NCBI GenBank assembly: GCA_026003195.1
Contig: BPGU01000001.1
Coordinates: forward strand, 1,039,398-1,103,397
Source: Armatimonadota bacterium
Lineage (GTDB): Bacteria > Armatimonadota > HRBIN16
Length of the DNA stretch: 64,000 nt
Direction: 5' to 3'
Numbering within the stretch: the first letter of the stretch is position 1; every line of letters starts with the position of its first letter. Position numbers and translations under genes: made by a program. Positions 5,587 through 37,488 of this stretch are shown here, piece by piece. A model generated the notes under the pieces. The model saw only the letters and a program-made list of their open reading frames with translations, searched no databases and was not told where the DNA came from.

Positions 5587-7755
5587 CTATCGTACTGTAA
5601 TGGGGCGTCTTCCACCTCTTCCCGGTCGCTGAGCTGGCGGGTCTATCGGAACCAGCACCCGTATACCGTCCGACACGCCGACCGTGCTGGTCAACCCTGC
5701 TCCGTTCACCGCCCGTACGGCAACGTAGTAGGTTTTGCCATGCGCCAGGCTCACGTTGAAGGTGACTTCCGTGTGCGTGCCCACGCTCGTCCATCCCATC
5801 ACGTCGGTGCCGCCGGAGGTAGTACCAATGGCTACCTCATAGCGAAAGATACCGGTTTCCAAATCCCGGCTCCACCAGCGAGCGTGCAGGGTGTTCAAGC
5901 TGCTTTGCACCGCTCCATCATCCCACACCTGTGGTGTCTCGGGGGGCGTGACATCCGGCTGCATGTCCACCGGACCGAGCCAGAAGTCCACTCCGGGTGT
6001 ATCCGCACCGGCAACCACTTCCACCCACTCGAACTCCTTACTGTAACCGTAGGCGGTCGCCTTCACCCGATAGTACCCGGGCGGCAGGTTGGGAATGCGC
6101 CATAGCCCGTAGTTTTGAGCAGTAGTTACCTTGCGTGTGCTACCTACCATCGCGCGTGCCTCAATCTGTGCTCCCTGCACGGGCGTGCCGTTAAAGTACA
6201 CCTGTCCCGACAAACAGCCCACGGTCGCGTTGCGGGCATTGAGTTCCAGCAGAGTGTTGCGCACGTTGATGCGCCCGAACCCGTAGCTGGGTGTCCATCC
6301 GCCATCCGCGCGTCCCTGAGCGTTGTCCGCGCCACGTTGTATGGCCCGCCATATCGCAAGGTTACCACCCGGTGTGTTCACGGTAAATCCTTTGTACTCC
6401 GCGTACAGCGCCGCCAGCCCCGATACATGGGGAGCTGCCATAGAGGTGCCAATCTGGTAGCCGTACATGTAGAACTGCTCGCCGAAGGCATCAGGGAGAA
6501 GCACAGGATAACTGGGTGCTGTCGAGTAGATGGTAAATGCCTCGGGCCACAGGTTGCCGTCGTCATCTTCTACCCACAGCAGACTGCCGCCCGGCGCACT
6601 GATGCCGATATAGTCACCCGTGCCTGCGTAGAGCGCCTCTGGAAAGTCATCCAGAATGCCGGTCGGCGAAACCCCCAGCACCTTGCTGTGCGCCGCCGGA
6701 TAGATGTTGCCGATATTGCCGCCACCGTTGCCCGATTCGTTCGCCGCCGCGATGAGGATGCACCCCTTGTAGTAGGCGTAGTTCACCGCGTCGGCGAGGA
6801 TTTGCGGGTAGCTGGTAGTGCCCAGACTCATGTTGATGACAGGAATGTTGTTATCCGCGCAGTAGATGAGGGCTTCCACCAGGTCGGCGTCCTCTCCGGT
6901 GCCCGTTGCATCCACTATCTTCACCGGTACAATCTGCGCGTTATACGCCACCCCGAAGACGCCCTCACCGTTGTTGGCTGCCGCTGCAGCGATGCCCGCT
7001 ACATGCGTGCCGTGCCCCAGTTCATCGGTGAAGTCGGAATCATACACACCGCCGAAGATGCTGCAGCCAAGCGTCCAATCTATCTGTCCGCCATAGCGCG
7101 AATCGGTGCTGGTACCACCTGCGTTCTTGAAGTCAGGGTGGTAGGGGTCCACGCCGCTATCGATAACCGCGATTCGGATGGCATCGCGTGGCTTGTTGGC
7201 GGCGGTGTAATAACGATTCGGATAAATCTGCCATCCTTCATACGCTTGGATGATGATCATATCCCAGAGGTACGGATACAGATTGGGGATGCCTGAGATT
7301 TTACCAGAGTCATATTCGTGGAACTTCGGGTCGTTCGGCTCCGGCAGCAGTGGACGTACGATGTAATTCGGCTCCGCGTAGAGTACCTGCGGTTGTTTGT
7401 GGAGCAGGTCTACCGCGCGCGCGACCGACACTCCCTGAGGCAGACGCACTACTGCCCAGCCGATCCTCTCGATAGTCCGCTCCACACGCGCTCCTGCCAG
7501 CTCAGGGATACTCTCCAGAACGGGTTGTAGCGCTGTTGCCACGGCGGTCCTTGTTGTCGTTGGAGAGAGAGCACGCTGTGCTGCCTGTACATACTGTGGG
7601 CGTAGCTTCACCAGCACCTGTCCGTCGCGATACTCCTGCCGTATCGTCGCCTGCCTGGCAACAGGCGTAGCGGGAAGCCGCAAAGGTGCCGAATAAACAC
7701 CTGCTGCAAGCAGAGCTATCAGTGTAAGAACTTGCCATGCTGTGTTCGCACGCAT
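5587..7755 (-). CDS. Secreted subtilisin-like serine protease (S8) with C-terminal domains
   Basis: A 722-residue extracellular protease. A signal peptide (about 1-22) is followed by a propeptide of about 110 residues containing DGQVLVKLRPQY, of the kind seen in fervidolysin-type proteases. The catalytic triad is complete: Asp199 in AVIDSGVD, His247 in HGTHVAG and Ser438 in GTSMAAPH, with the oxyanion Asn in IAAANES. After about residue 510 there is a carboxypeptidase-regulatory-like segment (GQVYFNGTPVQGAQIEARA), then a fibronectin-III-like domain to the end, probably for substrate or surface binding. A consensus promoter lies upstream (7789-7817). It is likely to serve in protein scavenging. 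Confidence 0.93.
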   Translation of the reverse strand: MRANTAWQVLTLIALLAAGVYSAPLRLPATPVARQATIRQEYRDGQVLVKLRPQYVQAAQRALSPTTTRTAVATALQPVLESIPELAGARVERTIERIGWAVVRLPQGVSVARAVDLLHKQPQVLYAEPNYIVRPLLPEPNDPKFHEYDSGKISGIPNLYPYLWDMIIIQAYEGWQIYPNRYYTAANKPRDAIRIAVIDSGVDPYHPDFKNAGGTSTDSRYGGQIDWTLGCSIFGGVYDSDFTDELGHGTHVAGIAAAAANNGEGVFGVAYNAQIVPVKIVDATGTGEDADLVEALIYCADNNIPVINMSLGTTSYPQILADAVNYAYYKGCILIAAANESGNGGGNIGNIYPAAHSKVLGVSPTGILDDFPEALYAGTGDYIGISAPGGSLLWVEDDDGNLWPEAFTIYSTAPSYPVLLPDAFGEQFYMYGYQIGTSMAAPHVSGLAALYAEYKGFTVNTPGGNLAIWRAIQRGADNAQGRADGGWTPSYGFGRINVRNTLLELNARNATVGCLSGQVYFNGTPVQGAQIEARAMVGSTRKVTTAQNYGLWRIPNLPPGYYRVKATAYGYSKEFEWVEVVAGADTPGVDFWLGPVDMQPDVTPPETPQVWDDGAVQSSLNTLHARWWSRDLETGIFRYEVAIGTTSGGTDVMGWTSVGTHTEVTFNVSLAHGKTYYVAVRAVNGAGLTSTVGVSDGIRVLVPIDPPAQRPGRGGRRPITVR

Positions 7756-7857: not shown

Positions 7858-8985
7858 TTACAGCTGCTGTGCGATACACTGAGTCACAGGATAGGGGGCG
7901 TTGGTCTTGAAGCCAGCGGTTTCAAAATGAGTGCGTGAGGCGACGTATCCCTCCCGACGCAGCTGCTGCACCAGTGCATCTATAGGGGGCAGGTGACCCA
8001 GACGAGTGCGTTTGCCCAGCTCCGGCACAGCATAGTAGCCAGCGGGTGAATCCGCTTCATCCACCATGAGCCGTAGCAGCCTCAGCAGCGCCTGATGTCC
8101 TGCCTTGCGCGCCTCCACGCTCATGAGGTGCAAGAACTCCGCGTCGTAGAGCGAACCTGTCCACAGCGGTCCCGCCCACTGTACGTCTTCACTACCGCAC
8201 ACGCGACATCTGCCTACCGTCACGTGCAGGGGCAGGGTAGTCTGGCTAAAGCATCCCATACACTGCACCAACCAGCCGATGTGCTGCGTGGGAAACGAGG
8301 AAGAGCCATAACGCAAGCGTACGGCGATCCGCATCGCGTAGCCCTCATCCAGCACAAAGAGGGGGTCATAGTATAATCCGCGCTCTCCTGCACTTTGTTG
8401 TAAGGCTCCGATGAGCACTCTGGCGCCGATTTCGTCCGCACACTCCCACGCGCGGGTCACGGCTCCGTAGTGGCGTATAGCCGGCTCGCGCAGTTTACCA
8501 CACAGTGCTGCCATATCGGTTGCCGTCAGATACAGCACGCCATCCCAGCGAGGGACCAGCGATGCGGCGTGCCAGTACACGGAAGGGCTACCGAAAGCAT
8601 CCAGGTCCACCCAGTCGAAGCGTTCATCGCGCAGGCGCATGGCGTAACACAGGCGATGCACCTGCTCGCAGGTCACTTCTACCTGCACATCAGGAGGAAT
8701 GGTGTTGATCCCCAGATTGTGCCGGATTGCCTCTACCGCTGCCGGGTTGCCATCGTTCAACACAAGGCGTTCTACGGGTGCTTCCAGCGCATACCGGATG
8801 CCTCGTGTGCCGATTCCTGCCATCAGGTCAATCACGTGCAAGCGCCGTTCCTGCAGCTCTGCTTCTGCGCGCATCGCCAGCACGCCGAAATCCCTCGCGA
8901 GACGAGCGCGAGGGTTGAAGAAAAGCTCTACCGGCACGACGAAGCGAGCCTGTCCTTCCTGCAGCTGTACCTGCTCTTCACTCAT
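7858..8985 (-). CDS. trm1: tRNA (guanine26-N2)-dimethyltransferase Trm1
   Basis: A 375-residue SAM-dependent enzyme that methylates N2 of G26 in tRNA. The Rossmann core shows DLMAGIGTRGIRYA (SAM loop), VLNDGNPAAVEAI and the catalytic D-L-D-A-F-G-S-P-S block typical of Trm1. A later pair of Cys motifs (CMGC and CRVC) forms the expected zinc ribbon, and the C-terminus has SRTHFETAGFKTNAP, matching the R-T-H-F/K-T-x-A-P ending. Trm1 is general in archaea and eukaryotes but restricted in bacteria, with Aquifex aeolicus the studied example. Start ATG 8985 overlaps the hemW stop as ATGA, so the two are translationally coupled. Confidence 0.9.
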   Translation of the reverse strand: MSEEQVQLQEGQARFVVPVELFFNPRARLARDFGVLAMRAEAELQERRLHVIDLMAGIGTRGIRYALEAPVERLVLNDGNPAAVEAIRHNLGINTIPPDVQVEVTCEQVHRLCYAMRLRDERFDWVDLDAFGSPSVYWHAASLVPRWDGVLYLTATDMAALCGKLREPAIRHYGAVTRAWECADEIGARVLIGALQQSAGERGLYYDPLFVLDEGYAMRIAVRLRYGSSSFPTQHIGWLVQCMGCFSQTTLPLHVTVGRCRVCGSEDVQWAGPLWTGSLYDAEFLHLMSVEARKAGHQALLRLLRLMVDEADSPAGYYAVPELGKRTRLGHLPPIDALVQQLRREGYVASRTHFETAGFKTNAPYPVTQCIAQQL

Positions 8986-10118
8986 GCCAGAAACTCCGCG
9001 CAGATGGTATTGGCGATCGGTAGTCCTTTAGGGGTGATACGCCAGTAATGGGAGGTGACCTCCAGCAGTCGCAGGCGCTGCAGCCGGTGGAGCTGGGGGG
9101 CGTAGCGTTGCGTCAGGTTCACCCCGTATCGCTGCTCTACTGCCTTCACATCCACGCCATCCCGCAGGCGAAGCATCAGCATGATGGTCTCGCCCAGAGA
9201 AGCATCCGCGTCCAGGCGTTCCTCCTCCTCTACCAGCGAAAGCCCCTCCGACACCGCCTGCACATAGCGACGTGGATTGCTCAGGCACTTCCATCGGACG
9301 CCATGCCGATAGGATACCGCCCCCGGGCCGAAGCCGAGATACTGCTCGTTGCGCCAGTAGACCATGTTGTGCTGGCACCGATAGCCCGGTCGGGCGAAGT
9401 TGGAGATTTCGTAGTGCTCATAGCCTGCACGGGGCAGAACGCGAATGGCGTGCTGATACATCCGCAGGTCTTCTTCCTCGTCGGGCAGCTGGAGCAACCC
9501 TTGCTGGTGCATGGTGTAGAACGGTGTGTTCGGCTCGATGGTCAGAGCGTAGCAGGAGAGGTGCTCCGGCTGCAGGCTGATCGCGGTGCGCAGAGTGCGC
9601 TGCCAGTGGCGTATGGTCTGACTGGGCAGGGCGAACATCAGGTCCAGATTGATGTTCTCGAAACCTGCAGCACGTGCCGCCTCATAGGAGCGTATCGCCT
9701 CCGCAGAGGAGTGTACTCTTCCTAGCACCTGTAGCAGGCGGTCGTCGAACGCCTGCACGCCCATGCTGAGCCGGTTGAATCCTGCCTGCCTGAGTATCGC
9801 GAAGCGCGAGCGGTCCGCTGAGCCGGGGTTTGCCTCCAGGCTGATTTCAGCATCGGGCAATACGCGAAAGCGGCGGCGGATGGCTTCCAGAATACCGATA
9901 ATCCATTCGGGCTCGGGAAAAGATGGTGTCCCCCCTCCGAAGAAGATAGTAGGCACCACCACGTCCTCTGCATCCGTACTCTCGACGTGGGCGCGTATCG
10001 CCTCCAGCGTGCGGCGCACGATACTGCCGCGCCAGGCGTAGGTGTTGAAGTCACAGTAGGCGCAGCGCTTGACGCAGAAAGGTATGTGCACGTATATGGA
10101 GACGCGCTCGAGGCTCAT
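8982..10118 (-). CDS. hemW: Radical SAM heme chaperone HemW
   Basis: A 378-residue radical SAM protein of the HemN/HemW group. The iron-sulfur motif CxxxCxxC is seen as CVKRCAYC close to the N-terminus, followed by FFGGGTPSF. Length and the lack of an N-terminal extension fit HemW, a heme-binding chaperone for haem enzymes, rather than the true coproporphyrinogen oxidase HemN; older databases call both oxygen-independent coproporphyrinogen III oxidase. ATG 10118 is chosen because MSLERVSIYVHIPFC is the usual N-terminus. A TATAAT box lies at 10143-10138 on the minus strand without a clear -35. The stop overlaps trm1. Confidence 0.9.
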   Translation of the reverse strand: MSLERVSIYVHIPFCVKRCAYCDFNTYAWRGSIVRRTLEAIRAHVESTDAEDVVVPTIFFGGGTPSFPEPEWIIGILEAIRRRFRVLPDAEISLEANPGSADRSRFAILRQAGFNRLSMGVQAFDDRLLQVLGRVHSSAEAIRSYEAARAAGFENINLDLMFALPSQTIRHWQRTLRTAISLQPEHLSCYALTIEPNTPFYTMHQQGLLQLPDEEEDLRMYQHAIRVLPRAGYEHYEISNFARPGYRCQHNMVYWRNEQYLGFGPGAVSYRHGVRWKCLSNPRRYVQAVSEGLSLVEEEERLDADASLGETIMLMLRLRDGVDVKAVEQRYGVNLTQRYAPQLHRLQRLRLLEVTSHYWRITPKGLPIANTICAEFLA

Positions 10119-10153
10119 AGCGTTTTCCACATACGGAATTATATCACACAACG

Positions 10154-10180
10154 CCGACTGGGGACAGTGTCCCCAGTCGG
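10154..10180. repeat. Perfect 13-bp inverted repeat between tlpA-like gene and hemW
   Basis: CCGACTGGGGACA (10154-10166), one central base, then TGTCCCCAGTCGG (10168-10180). It starts 2 bases after the stop of the minus-strand gene at 10183 and is followed on the plus strand by TTTT. It could be a transcript 3' end structure, a dispersed palindrome or a protein site near the hemW promoter. Confidence 0.65.
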
Positions 10181-10182
10181 TT

Positions 10183-10632
10183 TTACTGCGTTTCGAAGAG
10201 GCGTTTCAGGGTGTTCTCCAGCATGGACAAGCCTGCGTGTCCTGCCGTTCGTCCACGCAACTTGCCCTCGTGGTCGAAGAGGTAGTAGGCAGGCACCCAC
10301 TGGTTCTCATAAGCCTCCGCCACGCGATGCAGGTTGTCGATGCCGCAGGGATGGTTGATGCCCAGCTCCGTTGCCTTCTGCCGAACGGTCTCCACATCGG
10401 TTTCCCAGTCGGCGCGAGGCATGTGGATAGCGATCACCTGCAGACCCACTGGAGTGTACGCATCACGCCACTGTAGCACTTTCGGCATGTTTTCGTGGCA
10501 GAGATGACAGCTCACCGACCAGAAGTGGACCAGTACCGGATGGGTTTTCAACGCTTCCCAATCCGGCTCGGCGTTGAGCCACTCGGTGACGCCACGCAGG
10601 TCAGGTATCGGCGTGCCTATGCGCAAAGGCAT
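10183..10632 (-). CDS. Thioredoxin-like (TlpA/redoxin) protein
   Basis: A 149-residue thioredoxin-fold protein without signal peptide or membrane anchor, hence cytoplasmic. The active-site pair is CHLC in VHFWSVSCHLCHENMP, and VPAYYLFDHEGKLRG supplies the cis-Pro region of the fold. It begins only 3 bases after the peroxiredoxin stop, so the two are surely cotranscribed; a natural inference is that it reduces the neighbouring 2-Cys peroxiredoxin or another peroxide-stress target. Its His-Leu dipeptide between the cysteines differs from the Gly-Pro of classical thioredoxins. Confidence 0.85.
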   Translation of the reverse strand: MPLRIGTPIPDLRGVTEWLNAEPDWEALKTHPVLVHFWSVSCHLCHENMPKVLQWRDAYTPVGLQVIAIHMPRADWETDVETVRQKATELGINHPCGIDNLHRVAEAYENQWVPAYYLFDHEGKLRGRTAGHAGLSMLENTLKRLFETQ

Positions 10633-10635
10633 CGC

Positions 10636-11211
10636 TTAACCCCCCGAGCTCAGTGTCTTTTGGCCAGGTTTCCAGTCGGCGGGGCACAAGCCACCCGTCT
10701 GCAGTGCTTCCAGCACGCGCAGCGTTTCGTCCACACTGCGCCCGACATTCAGGTTGTGTATCACGGCGTACTGCAGGATGCCGTCGGGGTCGATGATAAA
10801 CAGACCGCGCAGGGCAACGCCCTCTTCTTCCACCAGCACGCCGTAGTCGCGCGACACCTGCTTCGTGATGTCGGACGCCAGCGGGAACTTCAAGCCAGCC
10901 AGTCCGTTCTTCTCGCGCGGGGTGTTAATCCACGCCCGGTGCGAGTACACGGAGTCCACCGATACCCCCAGCACATCCGCGCCCAGCTCCACGAACTCCT
11001 CATAGCGGTCAGAGAGGGCGAGGATCTCGGTGGGGCACACGAAGGTGAAGTCCAGAGGGTAGAAGAACAGTACCAGCCACTTGCCGCGGTAGTCCGATAG
11101 GGAAACCTTCGACTGGAGCTTATCCATATCGGCAGTGGTGAACATCGTGAAGTCAGGGGCAGGTTTGCCCACCTTGGCTTTACTGCAGTACATTGGTGTG
11201 TTCTCGGACAT
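10636..11211 (-). CDS. 2-Cys peroxiredoxin (AhpC/TSA, Prx1 type)
   Basis: A 191-residue cytoplasmic peroxidase that reduces hydrogen peroxide and organic hydroperoxides. The peroxidatic Cys lies in FYPLDFTFVCPTE and the resolving Cys in the C-terminal GGLCPADWKPG, so this is a typical 2-Cys enzyme. Start ATG 11211 follows a very strong GGAGGAGG site; an upstream in-frame start at 11232 is unlikely. A PerR/Fur regulator lies 51 bases upstream on the same strand and a thioredoxin-like protein immediately downstream, giving a peroxide-defence operon perR-prx-trx. Expression is probably set by the promoter and operator near 11666-11724. Confidence 0.93.
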   Translation of the reverse strand: MSENTPMYCSKAKVGKPAPDFTMFTTADMDKLQSKVSLSDYRGKWLVLFFYPLDFTFVCPTEILALSDRYEEFVELGADVLGVSVDSVYSHRAWINTPREKNGLAGLKFPLASDITKQVSRDYGVLVEEEGVALRGLFIIDPDGILQYAVIHNLNVGRSVDETLRVLEALQTGGLCPADWKPGQKTLSSGG

Positions 11212-11262
11212 GTTCCTCCTCCTTCCATACAAAAGTATTCCTGAACGGTCACACTAAACGTT

Positions 11263-11640
11263 CTATGCCTGCTGACATTCCGGACAGATGCCAAACCACT
11301 CTACACGATGCACGCTCACCCGGTAGCCAGTGAGCTGTTGAAGGTGTTCGATCGCTGCTTGATCTACGACGTCAGGAACGTCTGTAATGCGTCCACAGCG
11401 CTCGCACACAATGTGCTGGTGCGCACCGGGTTGCCCATCAAAGCGGCTCTTGCGGGATCCGGCTTCCAGATGAACGACCAGCCCCTCTTCCTCCAGGCGC
11501 CCTAACAGGCGATACACTGTACCCAGACTGATGTTGGGTATGATCTTCCGCGCCTGCTCATACACCCAGTCCGCCGTGGGGTGGGCATCGGTGCTGCGCA
11601 CGATGTCCAGAACCACCTGTCGTTGCCTTGTGTTGCGCAT
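11263..11640 (-). CDS. Fur-family regulator, PerR-like
   Basis: A 125-residue metal-dependent repressor. The N-terminal winged helix is visible (VYEQARKIIPNISLGTVYRL), then the metal-sensing HQHIVCERCGRITDV and the C-terminal CPEC; the two CxxC pairs form the structural zinc site. An Asp-rich DVPDV segment replaces the longer His cluster of Fur and Zur, which favours PerR. ATG 11640 gives the usual family length. The divergent position to the MFS gene and the downstream peroxiredoxin support peroxide sensing. An inverted repeat at 11666-11689, just downstream of its own -10 box, is the likely autoregulatory site. Confidence 0.87.
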   Translation of the reverse strand: MRNTRQRQVVLDIVRSTDAHPTADWVYEQARKIIPNISLGTVYRLLGRLEEEGLVVHLEAGSRKSRFDGQPGAHQHIVCERCGRITDVPDVVDQAAIEHLQQLTGYRVSVHRVEWFGICPECQQA

Positions 11641-11665
11641 CGGAATATCATTCACTCCGGAATTA

Positions 11666-11689
11666 GAAATAGTATTCGTTCCTATTTTC
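11666..11689 (-). promoter_or_regulatory. Putative PerR/Fur operator
   Basis: Imperfect inverted repeat in AT-rich DNA: GAAATAG (11666-11672) facing CTATTTTC (11682-11689). It begins a few bases past the -10 box of the regulator's promoter, where a bound repressor would block initiation. It only loosely matches the classical 7-1-7 Per box. Confidence 0.5.
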
Positions 11690-11695
11690 ACATAT

Positions 11696-11724
11696 AGTAT
11701 ACTGAAAGGCGTTGAAAATGTCAA
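11696..11724 (-). promoter_or_regulatory. Promoter of the perR-prx-trx group
   Basis: Minus strand TTGACA (11724-11719), 17 bases, TATACT (11701-11696). Confidence 0.8.
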
Positions 11725-11823
11725 GTTAGCCCTCAAAAACCCTGCGGGGATGACTCTTGCTCTCGCTAGATATTCTGGGGTACGATTCTGATATGCTGTC
11801 ATCTCTGGGTGGAGGAAAGGGTT

Positions 11824-37413: not shown

Positions 37414-37488
<75 letters not shown>

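Follow-up and report, generated by a model that had tools for sequence, protein, structure and literature searches.

Introduction

Which enzyme is encoded by the gene that directly follows hemW in a bacterium of the phylum Armatimonadota, and what would it do to the tRNAs of its host? A sequence-only reading of a stretch of 64,000 nucleotides (the window, by which we mean this whole stretch) had proposed Trm1, the tRNA G26 dimethyltransferase, and had called it rare in bacteria. As a passage of one review puts it, Aquifex "exceptionally possesses Trm1 in eubacteria" (PMC6313347), and according to a section of a second review, Aquifex aeolicus is the single bacterial species for which m2,2G26 has been described (PMC10608323). 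HRBIN16 is named as a class of the Armatimonadota in excerpts of hot-spring metagenome papers (PMC11788075, PMC11071339). Our literature search on bacterial and Armatimonadota Trm1 found no study in this phylum; most subscription papers, including the original Aquifex reports, lay outside this search. The enzyme described here is of a known kind, and its known range is slightly widened by a divergent member from an uncultured lineage of hot-spring bacteria.

The gene and its position behind hemW

The open reading frame is real: its boundaries are exactly those that had been read from the sequence, and the 375 codons begin with an ATG (Table 1). The Pfam profile PF02005 matches residues 9-366 of the protein (positions 8-369 of the 376 in the profile) with an E value of 4.7e-70 and 237.1 bits at a gathering score of 27, as expected for a member of the Trm1 family. 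Moreover, the only sequence matches in the PDB are Trm1 proteins, i. e. those of Aquifex (3axs, 4.7e-40) and Pyrococcus horikoshii (2dul, 2.1e-37). For TIGR00308, the TRM1 equivalog of NCBIfam, the protein reaches 226.1 bits and stays below the cut-off of 280.65, which is exceeded by the control proteins of Aquifex (300.9 bits) and P. horikoshii (308.1 bits). This scoring covered two members of the genus and one protein of family f17, the second family of the phylum that carries trm1 (see below); the second genus member (L003, 236.7 bits) and the f17 protein (L024, 225.9 bits) are under the cut-off as well. Since both groups of the phylum score below the cut-off, they represent a divergent part of the Trm1 family; judged by these profiles, the window protein is to be filed in this family but outside the TIGR00308 equivalog. 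Contamination as the source of the gene is ruled out: the contig has a length of 1.34 Mb, the genome contains a single trm1 copy, and the same gene order recurs in eight further genomes.

Table 1. Positions of trm1, its conserved elements and neighbouring genes, and the tRNA gene of the window.
Feature	Position	Strand	Remarks
trm1, tRNA N2-guanine (di)methyltransferase, 375 aa	7858..8985	-	PF02005 237 bits; PDB 3axs/2dul; full-length fold match, Z 36.6-36.8
C-terminal motif T352-H-F...K-T-x-A-P364	7894..7932	-	alignment; lost in f17 (VHH)
Zinc-ribbon cysteines C242-x2-C245...C260-x2-C263 (putative)	8197..8262	-	common to Aquifex; absent from P. horikoshii; not a C-x2-C pair set in f17
Asp184	8434..8436	-	alignment; His in Aquifex, P. 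horikoshii and f17 proteins
Motif IV, DLDAFGSP, residues 127-134	8584..8607	-	Asp129 expected to be catalytic; Ala130 where other Trm1s examined have Pro
ATGA overlap, trm1 start/hemW stop	8982..8985	-	sequence; probable translational coupling
hemW, radical SAM haem chaperone	8982..10151	-	directly upstream of trm1; TIGR00539 308.7 bits, cut-off 205.4
Redoxin gene	10183-10632	-	upstream of hemW, same direction
AhpC-type peroxiredoxin gene	10636-11232	-	upstream, same direction
Fur-family regulator gene	11263-11802	-	upstream, same direction
Subtilase gene	5587-7755	-	downstream of trm1
tRNA-Arg(CCG)	37414..37488	+	only tRNA gene of the window; G26, G10-C25, C11-G24; possible substrate

It is very likely that trm1 genes of this kind from the phylum already carry a database annotation. 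TIGR00308 is named TRM1 yet described as guanine(10)-N(2)-dimethyltransferase, and the G26 enzymes of Aquifex and P. horikoshii pass its cut-off; genes for G26 enzymes may be misnamed by this label.

The arrangement from which translational coupling to hemW had been read is confirmed in both of its parts: the upstream gene belongs to HemW according to TIGR00539, and the ATGA overlap is kept in eight of the nine Trm1-bearing genomes of the genus, the ninth having TGATG with an overlap of one base. Coupling of the two genes as an arrangement of this genus is well supported by these sequences. Moreover, the order fur-hemW-trm1 is found in all eight other Trm1-bearing members of the genus; in four of these, as in the window, the peroxiredoxin and redoxin genes separate fur from hemW. 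In the 17 f17 loci, no hemW was found near trm1 within a flank of 1.5 kb or less. We looked for a functional tie between trm1 and HemW and found nothing beyond the gene order; most likely, the link consists only in co-expression from one transcript.

In the window, hemW and trm1 stand at the end of a co-directional run on the minus strand (7858-11802) that starts with the gene for the Fur-family regulator, followed by the peroxiredoxin and redoxin genes. The subtilase encoded downstream of trm1 has a fervidolysin-type propeptide and a carboxypeptidase-regulatory-like domain; its gene adjoins trm1 in the stretches of four of the eight relatives, and some stretches end too soon to show it.

Distribution and origin in the phylum

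PF02005 exceeds its cut-off in 26 of the 291 genomes of the phylum, and 17 more have weak matches below this threshold only (43 in total at E <= 0.001). All 26 genomes fall into two families, the window's own (f1) and f17; the rarity ascribed to the gene thus holds within the phylum. In the window's own class, trm1 is present in nine of ten genomes, all of one genus and including all seven of good quality. Similarly, 17 of the 18 f17 genomes carry the gene, among them all 11 good ones. The two genomes without trm1, one from each group, are 77% and 65% complete. In neither lineage is the gene sporadic. Four named relatives, HRbin16 among them, show 81-88% identity in their best segment; together with the use of HRBIN16 as a class name, this suggests that the window belongs to the Armatimonadota. 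In a control set of 14 genomes, PF02005 gave eight matches in all, five of them over the cut-off; since only four of the eight are archaea, the five include at least one bacterium, probably, as we infer, Synechococcus elongatus. The Trm1 gene is therefore not limited to Aquifex among bacteria, and its conservation as a single copy throughout two more bacterial lineages makes the Aquifex-only statement too narrow.

How did the gene come to be in two families? In an rpoB tree of 26 genomes (left out were G004 with a partial gene, G060 with a split gene and the second pieces L205 and L206; G163 has no rpoB match), the own genus stands beside a group of f17, f18 and f19 with a support of 100/98. 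The search of the 291 genomes gave no Trm1 match in the f18 and f19 genomes (G177 and G178, one each). Therefore, trm1 was either present in the common ancestor and lost once, or it was gained twice, and one gain plus one loss is as short as two gains. The ratios of Trm1 to rpoB distances (2.1 for f1, 0.95 for f17 and 1.78 between the two) would fit inheritance from a single ancestor, without proving it. The Trm1 tree places the proteins of the phylum on one side and those of Aquifex and P. horikoshii on the other (100/98); because this tree has only two outside sequences, which stand on very long branches and are unlike in composition, it does not tell donor from recipient. No relatives of trm1 were found on plasmids, phages or viral contigs, and there is thus no sign of mobile carriage, nor did this search add sequences to the tree.

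Proposed activity and tRNA substrates

Judged by its sequence, the protein most likely makes m2G or m2,2G at G26, and we consider it quite probable that it is a genuine, divergent bacterial Trm1 that forms m2G26 and then m2,2G26. The N-terminal Rossmann domain would bind S-adenosylmethionine, and Asp129 of motif IV would activate the 2-amino group of the guanine at the junction of the D-stem and the anticodon stem. Two methyl groups would be transferred in turn, giving presumably m2G26 first and then m2,2G26, and the C-terminal domain would dock the tRNA core together with the zinc ribbon, which is expected to bind zinc. The enzyme would be co-translated with HemW.

The reading had asked which tRNAs carry G26. 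In the own genome (55 tRNA hits, the four weakest of which were left out), 50 distinct tRNA genes were read: 32 carry this base, 17 have A26 and one has T26. G26 is combined with G10-C25 and C11-G24 in 25 of the 50, tRNA-Arg(CCG) of the window included: 17 of these have a variable loop of five nucleotides, five belong to class II (Leu or Ser), and three have a four-nucleotide loop. In the case of yeast Trm1, a passage of PMC10608323 names these same elements, G10-C25, C11-G24 and the five-nucleotide variable loop. The census thus answers which genes have G26, but it gives no evidence of modification. A Trm1-bearing f17 genome (G164, all 49 hits covered) has G26 in 35 of 48 genes, and the one Trm1-less control genome of the phylum (G021, 73 hits, ten of which were left out as belonging to a tRNA array or as odd ones) has it in 34 of 60. 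Since G26 is present in the Trm1-less genome too, it shows substrates, not use. Accordingly, G26 enrichment as a sign of Trm1 use was rejected: the pooled 67 of 98 genes in Trm1-bearing genomes do not differ significantly from 34 of 60 (Fisher p 0.17). In the Trm1-less genome, a dense cluster of tRNA hits, several of them low-scoring, lies at G021:C1:1204505-1213169 and looks like a tRNA array.

The alternative that survives best, although we regard it as rather unlikely, is a multi-site enzyme that methylates both G26 and G27 and recognises the T-arm. Aquifex Trm1 is of this type according to a part of PMC4307237, and it is the best match in the PDB by sequence. Like the window protein, it stems from a bacterium and a thermophile, has the full-length fold, the four zinc cysteines and the motif with the catalytic Asp, and the two share 31% identity. 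Moreover, G27 is found in nine of the 50 tRNA genes, four of which have A26, and again this shows substrates only. However, the identity to the P. horikoshii enzyme, an archaeal G26 Trm1, is about the same (31% as well), and the C-terminal THF..KT.AP is complete, as in P. horikoshii (RTHF..KT.APY). In addition, G27 is no commoner in the Trm1-bearing genomes (17/98) than in the Trm1-less one (11/60). The Aquifex protein also differs in its PF02005 score, a piece of 345 amino acids reaching 467 bits as compared to 237 for the window protein. Methylation at G26 thus stays our preferred reading, and the phylum offers a second bacterial system for the origin of G26-only as opposed to G26/G27 specificity.

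Conserved and altered residues

We aligned nine proteins of the own genus and 16 full-length f17 proteins with those of Aquifex and P. horikoshii; L026 (genome G168), which is cut by a contig end, was left out of the alignment, the tree and the counts of fixed positions, and L031-L034 were left out as second copies of genus members. Both reference proteins and all 25 proteins of the phylum are identical at 41 positions, including Asp127, Asp129, Phe131 and Gly132. Asp129 aligns with the motif IV Asp of both references and is the putative catalytic residue. It would correspond to D201 of Schizosaccharomyces pombe Trm1: in this enzyme, as stated in a portion of PMC10652106, the catalytic Asp deprotonates G26, and the D201A mutant is dead.

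At four positions, all nine members of the genus depart from a residue that Aquifex, P. horikoshii and each of the 16 f17 proteins have in common (Y23F, P130A, H184D and I190V). Of these changes, P130A affects motif IV and H184D the conserved block that comes after it: in 9/9 genomes, motif IV is D-(L/M)-D-A-F-G-S-P, i. e. DAFG instead of DPFG, and KHE in Aquifex or CHE in P. horikoshii is replaced by ADE/GDE. This Pro and the His of (C/K)HE are conserved in the other Trm1s examined and are not known to be defining. The four zinc-ligand cysteines are present in all nine genus members and in Aquifex but absent from P. horikoshii and f17, where only L009 has one stray C-x2-C. The statement that all expected blocks are present thus holds for the catalytic Asp, the zinc cysteines and the C-terminal T-H-F...K-T-x-A-P, whereas the Pro of motif IV and the conserved His are gone.

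These changes raise the idea that P130A and H184D alter catalysis: the enzyme might stop at m2G, act on another guanine, or serve mainly as a helper of tRNA folding. That only four otherwise fixed residues differ throughout the genus and that half of them lie in motif IV and the next block speaks for this idea, as does the catalysis-independent chaperoning reported for S. pombe Trm1 in a section of PMC10652106. On the other hand, the catalytic Asp is retained together with the FG next to it, and Ala would preserve the backbone at this position. Moreover, no relaxed selection is seen: dN/dS is between 0.039 and 0.094 in 36/36 same-genus pairs, rough values with many dS near or over saturation, and these comparisons argue strongly for purifying selection on trm1 in the genus. 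We therefore hold altered catalysis to be unlikely. An active Trm1, as had been supposed from the sequence, is likely because of the purifying selection and the kept Asp129. The Trm1 of this genus allows one to ask whether the proline of motif IV is needed.

The f17 proteins share with the window protein 36-39% identity, the equally low TIGR00308 score and one supported rpoB clade. In contrast to it, they keep DPFG and CHE and lack the zinc cysteines and THF, and they differ at 11 positions that are fixed in the own genus, Aquifex and P. horikoshii, the THF motif among them. The set of losses in f17 loci such as L024:1486-2601 is the reverse of that in the window's genus. A bolder reading would be that the Trm1 of two related lineages forms a divergent bacterial subfamily beyond the known equivalog, in which each lineage lost a different canonical part (Pro of DPFG and His in one, zinc ribbon and THF in the other), with a site or degree of methylation unlike those of all studied Trm1s and, in the window's genus, with expression linked to a Fur/PerR-type cluster of redox and haem genes. 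We regard this combination as speculative and improbable.

Predicted fold

An AlphaFold2 model of the protein, with 25 window and locus proteins as input, has a mean pLDDT of 80.8 and a pTM of 0.83; confidence is below 50 at residues 159-180, the conserved stretch after motif IV. That the protein belongs to another N2-guanine or tRNA methyltransferase family (Trm5/TYW2, Trm11 or RlmK-like) and has been misnamed is hardly conceivable: the weak match to PF02475 (TRM5-TYW2) has 20.1 bits at a cut-off of 28, whereas PF02005 gives 237 bits over 358 residues, the other families listed in the fold comparison align at most with about residues 1-303 and mostly with 1-228 at Z <= 21.4, and they were rejected on profile, PDB matches and fold comparison. 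The next-best match after Trm1 is Trm5b (Z 21.4 over 180 residues), and the Trm5/TYW2-type entries, at Z 21.4 and below, cover the catalytic domain alone. The identity as Trm1 is borne out by sequence, PF02005 and predicted fold. The model matches the Trm1 entries 2ejt, 2dul, 2ytz and 3axs from end to end (Z 36.6-36.8 over 335-353 residues; 36.7-36.8 for the P. horikoshii structures 2dul and 2ejt). Residues 5-375 align to 2ejt, 2dul and 3axs, so that the model predicts both the Rossmann methyltransferase domain and the Trm1-specific C-terminal domain, and the Foldseek result agrees with this assignment.
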